Positions 3,454 to 43,699 of a stretch of 64,000 nucleotides of DNA are shown piece by piece. Below the pieces are notes generated by a model that saw only the letters and a program-made list of their open reading frames with translations, was not told the DNA's origin and made no database searches. This DNA comes from a virus, in IMG/VR virus record IMGVR_UViG_3300023083_000001, positions 194,358-258,357 of that record. One strand, 5' to 3'. Position numbers and translations under genes: made by a program. Position 1 is the stretch's first letter, and each line of letters begins with the position of its first letter.

Positions 3454-5616
3454 ATGGCCGCATTGACTAACCCATTCCTTCTTCCGGTTGAGCAGTATCA
3501 ACGGGACATCGATATCAAGAAAGGTTATCTCCAACAAGTTGCTAAGTATCTGTCCTGCGCGCTGAAGAAGCCGTACAAGCAATGTCTGGAGTTTGTACTC
3601 AACGAAGTGAAGGACCGCAACAGCGAGTTCCGCTTCCGTGATCCAAAGATGTTGCAGTTGATCCGCAAAGGGGTTGGTGAGCGAGTTCAGGACGAAACTA
3701 CCTTTCTGGATTACGTTGACGCTATTATCGACACCGGTCGTATTGTTTCCCCCTCGCTTGTGGTCTACGAGCGTCCTGAGGTTGAGAAGTCTGTAACCGC
3801 TGAATGGCAAGATGAGAACATCAAAGCTCGTAAGCGTTCAAAGACTGCAATGTTTGAATTGAAACAACTCGGCGAATTGATGAAGTCGGCTTTGGCTGAC
3901 TATGACCAGAACGCCCGTAAGATCCGTATCAACTCCGTGTCGGGTATGCGCGGCTTTGAAGGTAACCCACTGTTTCTGGCATCGGGTCACTCCAGCCTGA
4001 CATCGATGTGTCGTGCTGCTGCTGGGTACGGTAACGGTACGGTTGAGCGTTTCCTGGCAGGCAGTCGTCATTATCACACGCCAGAGATTGCCAAAGCTAA
4101 CATCATGGCCATGATCACCATCGAAGACAAAGCTCGTTTCCTGGCTGTGATCTCCCGCTACAACCTGGTGTATCCAACAGTTGAAGATGTGGTTTCGATG
4201 ATCCGTCGGTCTACCGACCTGTACTGGGAAACTCCAGACGAGATGGATCTGATCGAAGAGATGGTCAAAGGCATGGATCAACTGGAACGGGCTATCGTCT
4301 GTTATTCAGGCGACATGTTCCACTTGGCTAAACTCAATCCAGAGATTGTGCGCGAGTTGTTTGGCGAGATGATTGCCATCAACATCGAAGACATGGATGA
4401 CGTGGACACTGCGGCTATCCTCAAAGGTCTGGACAGTACAGAGAAAGCGTACATCAACGCCCTGTGTGCTAACGTGCTTAAAGGTACGACCCTCAAACAA
4501 GTCCAGGCAAACAATCCAGCGGGCTGGCAGACGATCGGCAAGACAGCCCAACGCTTTATATGGGCCTGTCAGAAGTATCATCAGCTAATCAATACACTGT
4601 TCGCTCCGATGCACTTGCCGCCCACTGTGGCGTCTTTGAGAAGCATCCAGCGCCGTGTCTGTCTGGCAGCTGATACTGACTCCTCTATCTTCACTACTGA
4701 GTATTGGGTGGAGTGGTACACCGGACATCTGAAACGCGGAGAAGTCGAAGACCGCATTTGGTATCTGGCGACTTACATGGTTTGTCAGTGCATTGCTCAC
4801 TCACTCGCCATGTTGTCTGCTAACGTTGGTGTTGAGCGTTCACAGATCTTCCGTCTGGCCATGAAGAACGAGTATGCGTTCCCGCAGTTCGCACTCACCA
4901 ACTTGGCTAAGCACTACTATTCTACCATGTCGATGCGTGAAGGTAACGTATACGACGAGTTGGAGTTGGAGATCAAAGGTGTGGAGCTACGTGGGTCAAC
5001 GGTACCTAAGCACATCTTGAAAGCTGCCGAAGACCTGATGCGCAATACTTTGCACGCTATTGACCGGGGTGAGAAACTCAACGCCGGCAAGGTATTGGCA
5101 TTGGTAGCAAGTTATGAATTGGACACGGTGAAGTCGATCAAGCGCGGGGAATACACTTACCTGCGCAGTGCTCAGATCAAACCTGACAGTCCGAAGATGC
5201 CGTACCACGAACTGTGGCAGGATGTGTTTGGTCCTAAATACGGCATGAGTATCAACCCACCGTACCCATGTGTGAAAGTCACTACTGAACTGGGCAACAA
5301 AACCCAACTCAAGGAATGGCTGGACAACATGGAAGATAAAGAGCTGGCTGGCCGTATGGCAGCATGGCTCATCAAGTACAACCGTAAGGACCTGCCAACT
5401 GTCTTCTTGCCAACCATGGCGATCAAAGGCAAAGGTCTTCCTCTGGAGATTCAAGATGCTGCGAATGTTCGTAAACTGGCCTACCAGATCAACTCCGGTT
5501 TCTATCGCATCCTCGAATCCATGGGTCTACACATCGTCGACCGCAACAACTATCGACTGGTGTATGACTTTCTAAGACTCGACGATTCGGTCGATGCACC
5601 GGAGGTGGTTGTATGA
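3454..5616 (+). CDS. family B DNA polymerase, C-terminal (polymerase motifs B and C) half
   Basis: 720 residues. Motif B is K156-x3-N160-S161-x2-G164 (KIRINSVSG) and motif C is D407-T408-D409-S410 (AADTDS), the catalytic aspartates that bind the metal ions. There is no exonuclease domain and no motif A (DxxSLYPS). These are found in the separate gene at 41888-43699, so the enzyme is split between motifs A and B and its active site must form from two polypeptides. The spacing between motifs B and C (about 245 residues) is much larger than usual, implying an insertion. A C-terminal region of about 300 residues would hold the thumb. Expected role: genome replication. ATG 3454 follows CCTCGAGGAA. 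Confidence 0.85.
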   Translation: MAALTNPFLLPVEQYQRDIDIKKGYLQQVAKYLSCALKKPYKQCLEFVLNEVKDRNSEFRFRDPKMLQLIRKGVGERVQDETTFLDYVDAIIDTGRIVSPSLVVYERPEVEKSVTAEWQDENIKARKRSKTAMFELKQLGELMKSALADYDQNARKIRINSVSGMRGFEGNPLFLASGHSSLTSMCRAAAGYGNGTVERFLAGSRHYHTPEIAKANIMAMITIEDKARFLAVISRYNLVYPTVEDVVSMIRRSTDLYWETPDEMDLIEEMVKGMDQLERAIVCYSGDMFHLAKLNPEIVRELFGEMIAINIEDMDDVDTAAILKGLDSTEKAYINALCANVLKGTTLKQVQANNPAGWQTIGKTAQRFIWACQKYHQLINTLFAPMHLPPTVASLRSIQRRVCLAADTDSSIFTTEYWVEWYTGHLKRGEVEDRIWYLATYMVCQCIAHSLAMLSANVGVERSQIFRLAMKNEYAFPQFALTNLAKHYYSTMSMREGNVYDELELEIKGVELRGSTVPKHILKAAEDLMRNTLHAIDRGEKLNAGKVLALVASYELDTVKSIKRGEYTYLRSAQIKPDSPKMPYHELWQDVFGPKYGMSINPPYPCVKVTTELGNKTQLKEWLDNMEDKELAGRMAAWLIKYNRKDLPTVFLPTMAIKGKGLPLEIQDAANVRKLAYQINSGFYRILESMGLHIVDRNNYRLVYDFLRLDDSVDAPEVVV

Positions 5617-5837
5617 AAATGCCGACTCACCATGATAGAACGTTCTGGCAGTGGTTGTTGCGTAAACCGGCAGTTCGTATTGAACGCCGACCTTTACCAG
5701 CCACTGCCCCACTTGGCCCAGCCCCTGCACCGGAGTGCTCCAATGTCAGAAGAACAAGTTGTACCTGCATCACAGTTTCGATTAATTGCCACGTTTGCAC
5801 CGATCGACGGTGTAGTTCAGGCGATCTTCGAAGCTGA
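5613..5837 (+). CDS. possible small basic protein, coupled to the polymerase gene
   Basis: 74 residues. ATG 5613 overlaps the polymerase stop (ATGA) and follows a strong GGAGGTGG, which argues for real initiation here. The product is basic and proline-rich at first, then cysteine-rich. Its last 95 bases overlap the better-supported gene at 5743 in another frame, and the second half reads like a shadow frame. It may be a short coupling peptide rather than a functional protein. Confidence 0.35.
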   Translation: MKMPTHHDRTFWQWLLRKPAVRIERRPLPATAPLGPAPAPECSNVRRTSCTCITVSINCHVCTDRRCSSGDLRS

Positions 5838-6285
5838 CGATAACGATCAGCGTAAGTTGCTGGACGCTGCGTATCGCTACATGACGTCCATGCCTGATCT
5901 GGTGTTGAACAAGATCTACATCACCAACCTTAACAACGATCGTACGTTCAACGATCGACATGAAGCATTGCGCCAAACCCTGAGCTTCTGGGGTAAAGAC
6001 ACCCATGCAGGAATCGAATTGGATCCTGTTGACCCTGATCCGCTAGGAACCGCGCAGCGCATTATGGGGGTTATGAAAGAGGGTATCGTTGTATCAGATC
6101 CGCTTGGCGCGTTGGCTGAAGCGATATCTGAGGGAGAACGCACTCCACTCGATTATCCGATACTTCTCATGCGGGGTAACAAAATGGGCGCTCAAGAGAT
6201 TGCCGAGCAGCGCTCAACCCGTCTTCGCGGTGCAGACACAGGAATCCCTCAGATCGACGAGGCTGGGTTCTTGCCAAAAGAGTAA
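5743..6285 (+). CDS. unknown protein
   Basis: 180 residues from ATG 5743 (MSEEQVVPAS), chosen because CGGAG lies 8 bases upstream and the longer frame from 5632 starts with unlikely sequence. The protein is acidic, mixed alpha/beta, with a repetitive charged C-terminus. No cysteine cluster, membrane segment or known motif. It is the last gene of the polymerase operon and converges on the leftward gene at 6319, with a stem-loop between. Function unknown. Confidence 0.7.
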   Translation: MSEEQVVPASQFRLIATFAPIDGVVQAIFEADDNDQRKLLDAAYRYMTSMPDLVLNKIYITNLNNDRTFNDRHEALRQTLSFWGKDTHAGIELDPVDPDPLGTAQRIMGVMKEGIVVSDPLGALAEAISEGERTPLDYPILLMRGNKMGAQEIAEQRSTRLRGADTGIPQIDEAGFLPKE

Positions 6286-6288
6286 ACG

Positions 6289-6324
6289 GCATACAGGGCG
6301 GGTTTCCCCGCCCTGGCTTTATGC
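6289..6324. terminator. stem-loop between convergent genes
   Basis: CAGGGCGGG (6294-6302) pairs with CCCGCCCTG (6307-6315) across a TTTC loop. The stem is framed by GCATA (6289-6293) and TATGC (6320-6324). It lies between the convergent ends at 6285 and 6319, so it probably ends transcription from both sides. Confidence 0.7.
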
Positions 6325-7401
6325 TGGAAGTTGACCAATTACCAGAATATCCAAACGTTCATTCAAGTACACCGCTTCGGCTGTTGTCAAGCCGTTACTC
6401 AGTGTCTTGTCTTCCTTAGACTGGATCAGGAAACGCTTGATAGCCGTGATCTCTTGCAATAGACGATCGTAGCCTGCGCGTTTACCAAACTCCAGTACCA
6501 CAGACGCCACTTCCATCTTCTGAGCAATCAGCGCCCAGATCACTTGGAAGGTCGGAGTCATCGAAGGAAACCCCACCGCTTGCAAGTAATTCTCACCGTA
6601 GACCGCTGGGATGCTGGAGAGGATCTGATTAGCCGTCATGGCTTTACCAGAGATCTTACTCACAGCGTCTGCAACAATCTCATCGGCGTGATGGTTGTTA
6701 TTGTTTTGCATGAAGGTCAAGTTCGTTCCTACAGGAGATGCGTACTTCAGACCCAACGCCACCTGCACCTTATTAAAGATCGCAACGTTCAAGTGACTCT
6801 TGAGTGCACCCACCAGAGGAACCGTAGTCAGGTATTCTTCCATGAGTTTACCAGGGTTAGCTGACTGCCACATCTTCCACTGAGCTGCCAGCAGAGGGAT
6901 GTCGATGTGAATGATCGCCAGACCTGGGTTCCTGATCACCATCTCGTTCTTCACACCCAGCTCAACGATGGTAGTATCACTCAGAGAGTGCTGGATGATT
7001 TCGATGGGGGTTACTGACTTCCAGTCACGCCACAGATCCATTGCAGTCCAGCGAGCACTCCTGGCGTAGACCACGATCTCTGGACACCCTGGATAGAAGT
7101 TACTGTCAGTAAAGATTCGACCTTTACTGAAGCTTGAGGTAATATCTAACGAGGAGCAGATATTCTTTGCGTTAACCTCAACCTTGGACATGTAGCTGAC
7201 AAGGTCGCCGTTGAACTCAACCGTGAGGGAGATCAGCAGCTTCATTAATAGGTGAGAACTGTCCAACCGTCCAGTCGATGTGGAACGCTGTTGGATCAGA
7301 CGCTGGTAGTTCAGATCGACCTGTTCTCTTAGGTAACCCATGCGGGCATACTGGAACGGCGAACGATCAGTAAAGTTGGAGGGGTTGAATAACTGATACA
7401 T
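6319..7401 (-). CDS. unknown protein of 360 residues
   Basis: Starts at ATG 7401 (MYQLFNPSN) behind AGGGACGG. Mixed alpha/beta with no transmembrane segment or nucleotide-binding motif. There is an Asn/His stretch (QNNNNHHADE) around residues 230-240. It is the only leftward gene in the first 24 kb and is divergent from the chimallin candidate at 7770, with 368 non-coding bases between. Possibly a conserved phiKZ-group protein, but I do not recognise it. Confidence 0.75.
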   Translation of the reverse strand: MYQLFNPSNFTDRSPFQYARMGYLREQVDLNYQRLIQQRSTSTGRLDSSHLLMKLLISLTVEFNGDLVSYMSKVEVNAKNICSSLDITSSFSKGRIFTDSNFYPGCPEIVVYARSARWTAMDLWRDWKSVTPIEIIQHSLSDTTIVELGVKNEMVIRNPGLAIIHIDIPLLAAQWKMWQSANPGKLMEEYLTTVPLVGALKSHLNVAIFNKVQVALGLKYASPVGTNLTFMQNNNNHHADEIVADAVSKISGKAMTANQILSSIPAVYGENYLQAVGFPSMTPTFQVIWALIAQKMEVASVVLEFGKRAGYDRLLQEITAIKRFLIQSKEDKTLSNGLTTAEAVYLNERLDILVIGQLPA

Positions 7402-7769: not shown

Positions 7770-9749
7770 ATGAGCAATAACGACGATTTCCAAACACGTA
7801 GCGACAGCCAACCCGAGGGCCGTCAGCCACGCCAGGAATCCCAAAGCAACGACCGTGCACAAGCCCGCGACGAGCGCCCTCGTCAAAGCCAACGCAATGA
7901 CGGTGAGCAAGTGACTCTGGCTGACCTCGGTCGTCTGAACGCACGTCCTGGTGTCGGTGGTCTGTCTGACGCAGCTCTGGTAGCAATGATCGAAGCTTTC
8001 GACGGCGCCAAAGCGTTCGACAAGCCAAACGTTCCTGAAGCAGTAAGCCGCAAGCGTTTCCGCGTGCTGCCACTGGATCAGAGCACTGGCCGTACGTCAC
8101 TGTCCAGCCTCCTGGTCGTTCTGCCGACCGAAATCGCTGGCAAACTCTTCACCCTGGTTTACGTTCTGCTGATCGAACAGCCGGGCGGCCCAGGTCTGCG
8201 TACTCTGTCTGATCGTGGCGAGCAATTCGAAGCCCTGATCCTGCCAGAAGACGTGATGACCGATCGTTACATCACCGTCATCAAGAGCCAGGTTGCCAAC
8301 CTGCAAGACAACTCGAACATTCTGATCGTCGGTAGCCAAGTGCTGTTGTACAGCACCGTAGCCACCATCACCGAGAAAGAAGGTCAAGCTGCAATCGCCG
8401 CCGTCTACGACAACGCGCTCGACGCCATCTCCGGCTTCCGCGAAAACATCGTCGACGCACTGAGCGACAAACGCAACGACGGCATGCGTATCAACCCTGG
8501 CATGATTGCCCGGACTGACCGCCTGGAAGTGTCTTTCGATTACAGCGGCAAAACCATCTCCGACTCTTCGGGTCTGCCGGTGCGTTCTGACGTGACTTCT
8601 GCCCTGTACTACTCGGCAGCAGCCCCTGAAGAAGAAAACCTGTACTCCCGTACTCTGCTCGGCGAAGTCCGCGCTGGCCTGGACCTGTTCCTGACCGACG
8701 ACGGCGTCGATCGTACCATCCCAAGCTTCGGTTCGCGCCGTCGCCGCGCTGGTGGTCGTGATGAAGTGGATCAGCCATTCTGGCAGCCAGTGTTCAACAT
8801 CACTTCGATCAACTGCCCTGCTGGCATTCCGTTCTCGCTGGAACTGGCTCAGCTGTTGCTGGCCCAGGTAGCACTGCAATCCAACGACTATCGTTGGGCG
8901 AACGTGCTGCGTCCTCGTTCCACCATCGCCGGTGGTCTGAAGCCAGTCGCACAACTGTCGCACCTGCACCTGCTGAACCCGGACAAGGAAAAGGCCGCCG
9001 TCATCAACGACGTCAGCCAGAACATGTCCGATCCCGATCTGTACGACTTCCTCGACGTCACTGTCAAACCGGAAATCGTATTCGGCATGGCGATCCCTTC
9101 CAGCGGCGAGAAATCTTGGGTGCTCAGCATCTACGAGCGTATCGCACTGGCAGATCCGCGTGACGCCGAGAAACTGATCGACACCTTGTTCGCATCGGCC
9201 GACGTTCTGACCGGTGGTCGTTTCACGAAACTGTACGACGAACTCTCCAACGGCACCAACCCGTCGCCGGTTGCGGCATACGGCACTCGCGCCTTCACCG
9301 GCACCTGGACCGATACCGACGGCAACGTGCGTCCTCTGAGCGAATGGAACGTTCCGGCGGTCCTGACTTCGGTTGGCGTGAAGAACCCAGAGCTGGCTCA
9401 AGACTACCAGTACACCTTCGAAGACCGTCGTCACTCGGTCGACTACAGCTTGGCACAACGCAACGGCATCCTGTCGCGCATTGTTCCAGGTCTGCACATC
9501 GTCGGTACCTGTGAGCAACTGAGCTTCCACCCTTGGTACATCCAAGCGTTGTCTCTGGCCCTGGCTGATGCGAACATGGCATCGCTGCCAACCAGCGGTG
9601 ATGGCCTGCAACAGTCGCGTCGTGTGGGTAGCACCGACTTCTCGGCGTTCGCTACTGCGGATATCGGCTCTTCGCGCCGTCGTCCAAACGACACTGCTGA
9701 TCGTGGCCGTGGTCGCGATCGCTTCAATGGCGGTGGCAACTACTACTGA
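7770..9749 (+). CDS. chmA: candidate chimallin, the phage nucleus shell protein
   Basis: 659 residues. Residues 1-48 are a hydrophilic Gln/Arg/Asp-rich tail, then a long folded core, then a flexible Ser/Arg/Gly-rich tail ending NGGGNYY. Chimallins (phiKZ gp54, 201phi2-1 gp105) are about 600-700 residues with disordered termini that link neighbouring subunits. Codon use is strongly biased to C-ending preferred codons, unlike most neighbours, implying very high expression. The gene stands alone between a 368-base leader and a strong terminator, and the next gene is an RNAP beta-prime fragment, the order I recall for phiKZ gp54-gp55. The identification rests on context, size and architecture; a major capsid protein is the main alternative. 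Confidence 0.6.
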   Translation: MSNNDDFQTRSDSQPEGRQPRQESQSNDRAQARDERPRQSQRNDGEQVTLADLGRLNARPGVGGLSDAALVAMIEAFDGAKAFDKPNVPEAVSRKRFRVLPLDQSTGRTSLSSLLVVLPTEIAGKLFTLVYVLLIEQPGGPGLRTLSDRGEQFEALILPEDVMTDRYITVIKSQVANLQDNSNILIVGSQVLLYSTVATITEKEGQAAIAAVYDNALDAISGFRENIVDALSDKRNDGMRINPGMIARTDRLEVSFDYSGKTISDSSGLPVRSDVTSALYYSAAAPEEENLYSRTLLGEVRAGLDLFLTDDGVDRTIPSFGSRRRRAGGRDEVDQPFWQPVFNITSINCPAGIPFSLELAQLLLAQVALQSNDYRWANVLRPRSTIAGGLKPVAQLSHLHLLNPDKEKAAVINDVSQNMSDPDLYDFLDVTVKPEIVFGMAIPSSGEKSWVLSIYERIALADPRDAEKLIDTLFASADVLTGGRFTKLYDELSNGTNPSPVAAYGTRAFTGTWTDTDGNVRPLSEWNVPAVLTSVGVKNPELAQDYQYTFEDRRHSVDYSLAQRNGILSRIVPGLHIVGTCEQLSFHPWYIQALSLALADANMASLPTSGDGLQQSRRVGSTDFSAFATADIGSSRRRPNDTADRGRGRDRFNGGGNYY

Positions 9750-41887: not shown

Positions 41888-43699
41888 ATGTCCATTCCTA
41901 CTACTGCGGCTGAGATTGACAAGTATATTTTGTCACTCCCCAAAGAAAGAATTGTTGCACGTGAATGTAAGCATGCCACGTATACCACTCACCGTAATGG
42001 TGAACGGGCAGACATGCTGGTTATCAAGGAATATCTGATCCTGGATGACGGTACGCGTATTCCACGCATCCGTAATGTCGAGAATTACCAACGACCTTAT
42101 TGGGTCACCAAGCCACACTTTCGTACCCACCCAGACAAGATCCAGTTTGAAGATCTGTCACGTCTTGACATGTTCAAGTCACCGCAATGTAAGTTGCGTC
42201 AAGACATCTGCATGCGCTTAGGTCACGGTAACCCGTCGAACCCGATCAAGATGCTGGCACGTTCACCATTCTTGTACGGGCTGGATCCAGGTCCTGAAGT
42301 CTTCCTGAAACAAAGTTACATGACCAAGTGGCCTGATTCGTTTGCACCTAACCGTGTCACCGTGATCGATGCCGAGACCGATGTGAACGGCGCACTGCAC
42401 AAGAAGTTACAATTGCCGATCTGCTGGTCACTCGTCAGCGATGATGAGATTGTTCTGTATGGTAATCAGGAATGGACGTACGACATTCCCAACTACGCCG
42501 AGCAGGTGTTGGCTGAGTACAAAGAAGTCATCGGTCAATGGGTCGAGATGATCCGTGAAACGTTGAAAGAAAAGAAAGGCGAGAACAAAGGTAAGTATCC
42601 AGAGTGGGTAGACCTGATCGAGAAGATTCCGGTGCGTGTTGAAATGTTGAAGAACGACTTCGCCATTACTAAAGGCATGGTCGATCGGCTACATGAAACC
42701 CAACCCGACATCGTCACAGGCTGGAACGTATTCTTTGATGCGAAAGTCATCGAGACGTCCATCGTCAATGCCGGACAAGATCCAGCTGACGTGTTGAGTG
42801 ATCCTCGTGTTCCGTTTGAGTACCGTGGCGCATTGTTGCGAGAAGGTCAGCGTGACAAACTGACGGCGTCTGGTCGTAAGATGCAGCTCGATCCACAGGA
42901 ACGTTGGAACGTTGTGCTCAACACAGCCTCCTGGCGTATGCTCGACGCGATGCAGGTGTATTGGCAGTTGCGTAAGGCAAAGGGTAAGGAATCTGGCGGT
43001 TACGGCTTAGACGCGATTCTAGGACGTCAACTCAAAACCGGTAAGTTGAAGTACGCTACAGAAGACACCATGGTTCCACCGGGTACGCTTCACTGGCACA
43101 TGGACATGCAGAAGAACTACAAGGTCCGATACGGTGTGTACAACATCATCGACTCCTTGGGTGTATGGGTGTTGGATAAGAAGAACAACGACTTGTCTTC
43201 ACAAGTCAGTTCGTTGGCAGGCCCTGCCGACTACTCTAACTTCAACTCACAACCGCGTGTCAACGCCACCGACATGCTCTTCAGCGTCTTGAAGATGCGT
43301 AAGAAAGTGATCTGTTCGACGTCCGACCAGATGGCTGATGAGAACGACAAGCTGGTAACCGGTAAGGACGGGTGGATTATCACCTTCCCCTCACACAACG
43401 TCGTGGACTCAGGTCTGTTCTTGTTTGAGGACATGCCGAACGTTCAATCAATGATCCACATGTTCAACGCGGATGCTGACGTTGAAACGACATACCCCAC
43501 TGCTGAGATCATTCAGAACCTTTCCAAGGAGACGACAATCGCAGAACCATGCAGGGTGATGGGAGTGGGTCGAGAAGCATTGCGTCTCGCCAGTGTCAAC
43601 ATGACAGGTGGTCGAGGCAATGCCGTTGAGATCATCGAAACCATTTGCAAGATGCCCACGTTTGATCAGTGGGTAGAGTTAGCCAAAGAAAAGATGTGA
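41888..43699 (+). CDS. family B DNA polymerase, N-terminal half (3'-5' exonuclease and motif A)
   Basis: 603 residues. Exonuclease motifs are intact: Exo I D161-x-E163 (VIDAETD), Exo II N280-x3-D284 (TGWNVFFD), Exo III Y418-x3-D422 (YNIID). Motif A of the polymerase domain is D531-x3-TYPT (DVETTYPT). The protein ends about 65 residues later, before motif B, which is in the gene at 3454. The two products must therefore assemble to form one active site. The gene is a single-gene rightward unit about 36 kb from its partner. Confidence 0.88.
   Translation: MSIPTTAAEIDKYILSLPKERIVARECKHATYTTHRNGERADMLVIKEYLILDDGTRIPRIRNVENYQRPYWVTKPHFRTHPDKIQFEDLSRLDMFKSPQCKLRQDICMRLGHGNPSNPIKMLARSPFLYGLDPGPEVFLKQSYMTKWPDSFAPNRVTVIDAETDVNGALHKKLQLPICWSLVSDDEIVLYGNQEWTYDIPNYAEQVLAEYKEVIGQWVEMIRETLKEKKGENKGKYPEWVDLIEKIPVRVEMLKNDFAITKGMVDRLHETQPDIVTGWNVFFDAKVIETSIVNAGQDPADVLSDPRVPFEYRGALLREGQRDKLTASGRKMQLDPQERWNVVLNTASWRMLDAMQVYWQLRKAKGKESGGYGLDAILGRQLKTGKLKYATEDTMVPPGTLHWHMDMQKNYKVRYGVYNIIDSLGVWVLDKKNNDLSSQVSSLAGPADYSNFNSQPRVNATDMLFSVLKMRKKVICSTSDQMADENDKLVTGKDGWIITFPSHNVVDSGLFLFEDMPNVQSMIHMFNADADVETTYPTAEIIQNLSKETTIAEPCRVMGVGREALRLASVNMTGGRGNAVEIIETICKMPTFDQWVELAKEKM

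Follow-up and report, generated by a model that had tools for sequence, protein, structure and literature searches.

The two genes and their motifs

The analysed stretch of DNA, 64,000 nucleotides long (positions 194358-258357 of a virus record of 258,357 bases; hereafter the window), carries two polymerase-related ORFs whose products we call the N-half and the C-half. Both ORFs start with ATG and have zero internal stops (603 aa and 720 aa). They lie 36,271 bp (~36.3 kb) apart, in agreement with the first-pass annotation, which had described them as intact and about 36 kb from each other; the residues that it had placed (D531 in DVETTYPT, K156-G164 as KIRINSVSG, D407/D409 in ADTDS) were found at those positions. 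The features are the following.

41888..43699, + strand: N-half gene, 603 aa, N-terminal and 3'-5' exonuclease domains and first part of the palm (motif A); PHROG 3011 (1e-165); model maps to RB69 gp43 1-473
42368..42376, + strand: Exo I, D161-x-E163; invariant in 50/50 N-halves
42725..42739, + strand: Exo II, N280...D284; N280 in 49/50 and D284 in 50/50 N-halves; aligns with the Exo II stretch of RB69
43139..43153, + strand: Exo III, Y418...D422; 50/50 N-halves
43472..43498, + strand: motif A (DVETTYPT), D529-x-D531...Y536-P537; 50/50 N-halves; profile alignment to RB69 407-432
3454..5616, + strand: C-half gene, 720 aa, fingers, remaining palm (motifs B and C) and thumb; PF20286 (3e-211), PHROG 2927 (1.1e-206); model residues 90-703 map to RB69 gp43 448-892
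3829..3843, + strand: R126...K130, presumably the counterpart of the fingers Arg/Lys that bind the triphosphate in other family B polymerases; 48/48 C-halves; profile alignment to Pol zeta
3919..3945, + strand: motif B (KIRINSVSG), K156...N160...G164; 48/48 C-halves
4672..4680, + strand: motif C (ADTDS), D407-T-D409; 48/48 and 20/20 C-halves
4909..4917, + strand: K486...Y488, a KxY-like motif that we take to be the one known by the name KxY; 48/48 C-halves; profile stretch 483-533 aligns to RB69 705-755
4975..4980, + strand: K508-G509 (KG); 48/48 C-halves

Conservation was read from 50 N-halves and 48 C-halves, the window together with viral contigs. Six of the 55 N-half representatives gathered were left out of the alignment, five because they are interrupted or cut (L218, L224, L229, L241, L243) and L188 as over-long, while all 47 C-half representatives were kept. 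Among the N-halves, the residues of Exo I, II, III and motif A vary little or not at all, with D529, D531, Y536, P537, N544 and T549 each present in 50/50. One of the patterns used to gather N-halves, which contributed 3 rows of 50, ended at D529; another search was run without any motif A pattern. Among the search patterns for the C-halves were the D407-D409 and K471/E473 blocks, so that their invariance in the 48 sequences is partly built in, and they are invariant also in the 20 C-halves gathered before the pattern search. The motif sets exclude each other: a motif A-like pattern is found in 50/50 N-halves versus 0/48 C-halves, and motif B-like and motif C-like patterns in 0/50 N-halves.

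Some N-halves are longer than that of the window. The excluded L188 protein (3983-6790, 936 aa) extends several hundred residues beyond the usual carboxyl-terminal end, with no Pfam match. Those of phiKZ (L015 1474-3390) and 201phi2-1 (L016 1489-3618) have an extra ~60-125 residues past window residue 385, a stretch that is partly acidic in 201phi2-1.

Homology and predicted structure

The C-half matches the Pfam family PF20286 (divDNApol, 'Divergent Family B DNA polymerase'; 3e-211) over residues 12-706 of 720. The sole Pfam signal of the N-half is a weak exonuclease match under the cut-off. DNA polymerase PHROGs cover both halves (3011 for the N-half, 2927 for the C-half), and phiKZ gp82 and 201phi2-1 gp144 are among the tblastn matches of the N-half. 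Judged on sequence, the match of both proteins to DNA polymerase families is far beyond chance. A profile of 17 N-halves aligns in order with the Exo II, Exo III and motif A blocks of RB69 gp43, D531 falling on the motif A Asp. The motif A piece is weak when taken singly (9.5 bits) and becomes convincing through its order and its invariance. For the C-half profile, the aligned regions are RB69 705-755 and, in several polymerases, the fingers and motif B. Searching the solved structures by phmmer with the single N-half and C-half proteins gave no relevant match, hence no close solved relative.

AlphaFold2 models built from the 50 and 48 sequences have a mean pLDDT of 86.0 and pTM of 0.80 for the N-half, and 89.5 and 0.85 for the C-half. 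VIA-align places N-half residues 23-551 on RB69 gp43 1-473 (4khn: Z 26.0, rmsd 3.2, 360 aligned) and C-half residues 90-703 on 448-892 (3uiq: Z 11.6, rmsd 5.0, 362 aligned). The latter fit is moderate, and Foldseek by itself finds far poorer matches to the C-half (best E 6.6e-4, TM about 0.2). Jointly the models cover nearly the whole RB69 enzyme with an overlap of about 25 residues and follow the gp43-type domain order (N-terminal, exonuclease, palm, fingers, thumb), so that, as modelled, the two proteins tile one T4-type polymerase. The cut falls near RB69 450-473, at the palm/fingers boundary, leaving the motif A strand on one protein and the fingers on the other. The gp43 of T4 type is a single chain, whereas here two ORFs 36.3 kb apart encode it, and the enzyme, though it would function as gp43 does, files with that of the phiKZ group. 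The first-pass reading of a single family B polymerase, divided between motifs A and B, in a phiKZ-group phage is thus supported by family matches, profile alignments and context.

The segment 526-554, which contains motif A, has pLDDT < 50 in the isolated N-half model though it belongs to the best-conserved parts of the protein. This combination in the model fits folding upon a partner; a shallow alignment or other causes may explain it too. At the other side of the cut, the first ~90 residues of the C-half (window 3454-3720) have no counterpart in the RB69 alignments and may contribute to the site at which the N-half docks.

The same data bear on a different view of the two proteins, in which the C-half alone makes up a whole, if divergent, polymerase, and the N-half is nothing more than an independent proofreading exonuclease visiting the replisome. 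The C-half does have a Pfam family of its own, and Iyer et al. 2021 (PMC7824862) interpret it as a polymerase whose exonuclease is a protein apart, standing alone. We hold this to be very improbable: the motif A-like pattern is missing from every one of the C-halves and present in every N-half, with D529, D531, Y536, P537 and N544 invariant; the C-half model matches RB69 from residue 448 onward only, past the motif A strand; and the N-half of phage AR9 is described, in an excerpt of PMC5312081, as holding a partial catalytic domain.

Distribution and genome context

With tblastn, named phage records were matched at 1e-5 in 273 cases by the N-half and 280 by the C-half, and at 1e-2 in 283 and 291, these looser sets including T4-like polymerases. 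Matches span 94-99% of the protein length in the best-listed records, and the best named relative is phage pPa_SNUABM_DT01 (37.5% and 42.9% identity for the N-half and the C-half, respectively). Examination of 25 records for both halves found the C-half in 25/25 and the N-half in 24/25, 23 of the latter by BLAST and one, Fusobacterium phage JD-Fnp4, by profile. The JD-Fnp4 protein (gene JDFnp4_99), missed by BLAST, has Exo I-III-like and motif A-like stretches discernible by eye. The lone record without an N-half is a 70-kb fragment (G007). The split is therefore the rule in the phiKZ group, and its qualification as unusual in the first-pass annotation was not borne out. Of 24 records, 10 have both halves on one strand and 14 have them on opposite strands. 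The spacing is 1.7 kb at the least (phiR1-37) and reaches tens of kb; most values fall within 25-43 kb, and those from records opened between the halves are larger. A second phiR1-37 match, at 148142, was rejected, there being no polymerase-like ORF of at least 200 aa at that place.

A fused form was sought among the stop-to-stop ORFs of the loci L001-L247: 140 match the N-half profile, 119 the C-half profile and 0 both, in a set where many contigs are included more than once and both halves occur together in one locus only (L024, phiR1-37).

The window also codes for the following proteins, which place the phage in the nucleus-forming phiKZ group.

7770-9749: nuclear shell protein (PHROG)
9837, 24454, 26645 and 33637: RNA polymerase beta-type subunits (PHROG)

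The nuclear shell family is matched in 13/17 records, the window's own included. AR9, phiR1-37 and JD-Fnp4 carry the split polymerase without a nuclear shell match, and the cut between motifs A and B is as in the window in AR9 and phiR1-37 and apparently in JD-Fnp4, from which the split probably predates the phage nucleus and is not an adaptation to it. An absent match is not proof of absence, since SPN3US likewise gives none. In a published comparison (PMC10299810), PBS1 and phiR1-37 serve as relatives without chimallin.

Interruptions of the two genes were observed in several relatives. The N-half gene is broken at or beside the motif A codons in G008 (L088 1568-6554), Goslar (L019 2956-6490), L241 (3962-7419), L229 (3926-7482) and L218 (3968-6226), its last piece starting at profile position 496 in four of them and 498 in one. 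Group I intron matches exceed the cut-off twice in L088 and also in L241, fall slightly short of it in L218 and in Goslar, and are very weak for L229. Motif A of the N-half gene looks like a recurrent intron site. In phiR1-37 it is the C-half that occupies two ORFs, g164 and g167, separated by a stretch that matches a group I intron (L024 214-2537); the N-half of this phage is followed by a homing endonuclease gene.

A polymerase probably assembled from two chains

The split is an established, already described arrangement of the phiKZ group, in print since about 2012. The abstract of Cornelissen et al. 2012 reportedly mentions two polypeptides that resemble the exonuclease domain and the polymerase domain of the T4 enzyme. 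The term 'split subunit DNA polymerase' is applied to OBP, phiKZ and SPN3US in passages of PMC5105663 and PMC5694885, which credit the first identification, in OBP, to that study. Excerpts of other reports list the polymerase of phiRP12 and phiRP31 as two ORFs each (PMC5468394) and, for AR9, identify gp152 as the catalytic subunit and gp132 as an exonuclease that also has a 'partial catalytic domain' (PMC5312081). OBP, phiKZ, SPN3US (gp18 and gp44), AR9 (gp132 and gp152) and phiRP12 (ORF3 and ORF251) have the same two proteins, the same cut and separate genes; the window differs from these PF20286/PHROG 2927 and PHROG 3011 pairs by sequence divergence only. In the open-licence literature we found no statement that the motif A Asp lies on the exonuclease protein, the wording for AR9 coming near.

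A cut between motifs A and B is also found in the T4-like Aeromonas phage 44RR, where gene 43 ends past motif A and 43B carries motifs B and C, so that such a cut is not peculiar to the phiKZ group. The 44RR genes are adjacent, 49 bp apart, in contrast to the 36.3 kb in the window, and their cut comes later, within the fingers: the N-part reaches PF00136 position 143, whereas in the window the C-half match begins at 103. The two splits therefore look independent and probably are separate events. For phage 25, a review (PMC2988022) states that 43A and 43B purify together and are active as a polymerase. In jumbo phages of group 2.2, passages of PMC7824862 describe a minimal Pol III alpha core split over two distant genes, with reassembly expected. 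That enzyme is split and distant like the polymerase of the window but its fold is unrelated.

Archaeal PolB is presumably encoded in two genes in Methanothermobacter and Nanoarchaeum equitans, and we take the halves of the latter to be joined by a split intein. MIJ3, a jumbo phage of another group, has a split PolB and a putative split intein, according to an excerpt of PMC6892783. The same covalent joining in the phage of the window has hardly any chance of being correct and was rejected: the C-intein end HN[C/S/T] occurs within the first 130 residues of 0/48 C-halves, and N-halves end 69-119 residues (median 85) past the motif A Asp, so that an N-intein would scarcely fit after the conserved tail. 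The idea that the split genes are remnants and that the phage relies on another polymerase has nothing for it beyond this phage being known from sequence alone and merits next to no credence, as the ORFs are intact with every catalytic residue and no PolA, PolIII alpha, second PolB or other intact polymerase was found with PF00136, PF03104, PF00476 and PF07733 in the 258 kb of the record, which may be incomplete. That search was also for the intact full-length enzyme whose presence elsewhere would have spoken against the first-pass proposal of assembly in trans, a proposal that the sequences thus appear to uphold.

We are highly confident that the two genes encode the replicative family B polymerase of T4 type as a pair of obligate subunits, which associate non-covalently into a heterodimer and share one active site. 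That the complex physically forms and is active is what we infer from homology, the tiling of RB69 gp43, conservation and the searches that found no other polymerase or splicing motif. The heterodimer is supported by co-occurrence of the halves in 24/25 records with mutually exclusive motif sets, by family matches, in-order profile alignments and models covering nearly all of RB69 gp43, and by the precedent of 43A and 43B in phage 25. The N-subunit would supply the exonuclease for proofreading together with the first strand of the palm, including D531 of motif A and the steric-gate Y536, and the C-subunit the fingers, motif B, the motif C D407/D409, the rest of the palm and the thumb. Upon non-covalent association the metal-binding Asp residues would come from two separate chains, so that neither protein would polymerise alone.

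We lean, with limited assurance, towards a wider hypothesis. The motif A strand and the conserved tail (D529, D531, Y536, P537, R566, N571, N578) may form a fold-upon-binding module, which would lack structure on the exonuclease subunit and complete the palm only once docked on the C-subunit. All multisubunit-RNAP jumbo phages would then have a two-chain active site, and the split would predate the phage nucleus and have an origin separate from that of the T4-like one.

As a discovery this has little weight, the split being a hallmark of the phage group. The refinement is that the so-called stand-alone exonuclease appears, from its sequence, to hold also an essential polymerase motif, the motif A Asp. 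With motif A on the exonuclease subunit, the C-subunit alone is expected to be inactive and both genes would have to be cloned together, and annotations that take PF20286 as the whole polymerase would miss part of the catalytic site.
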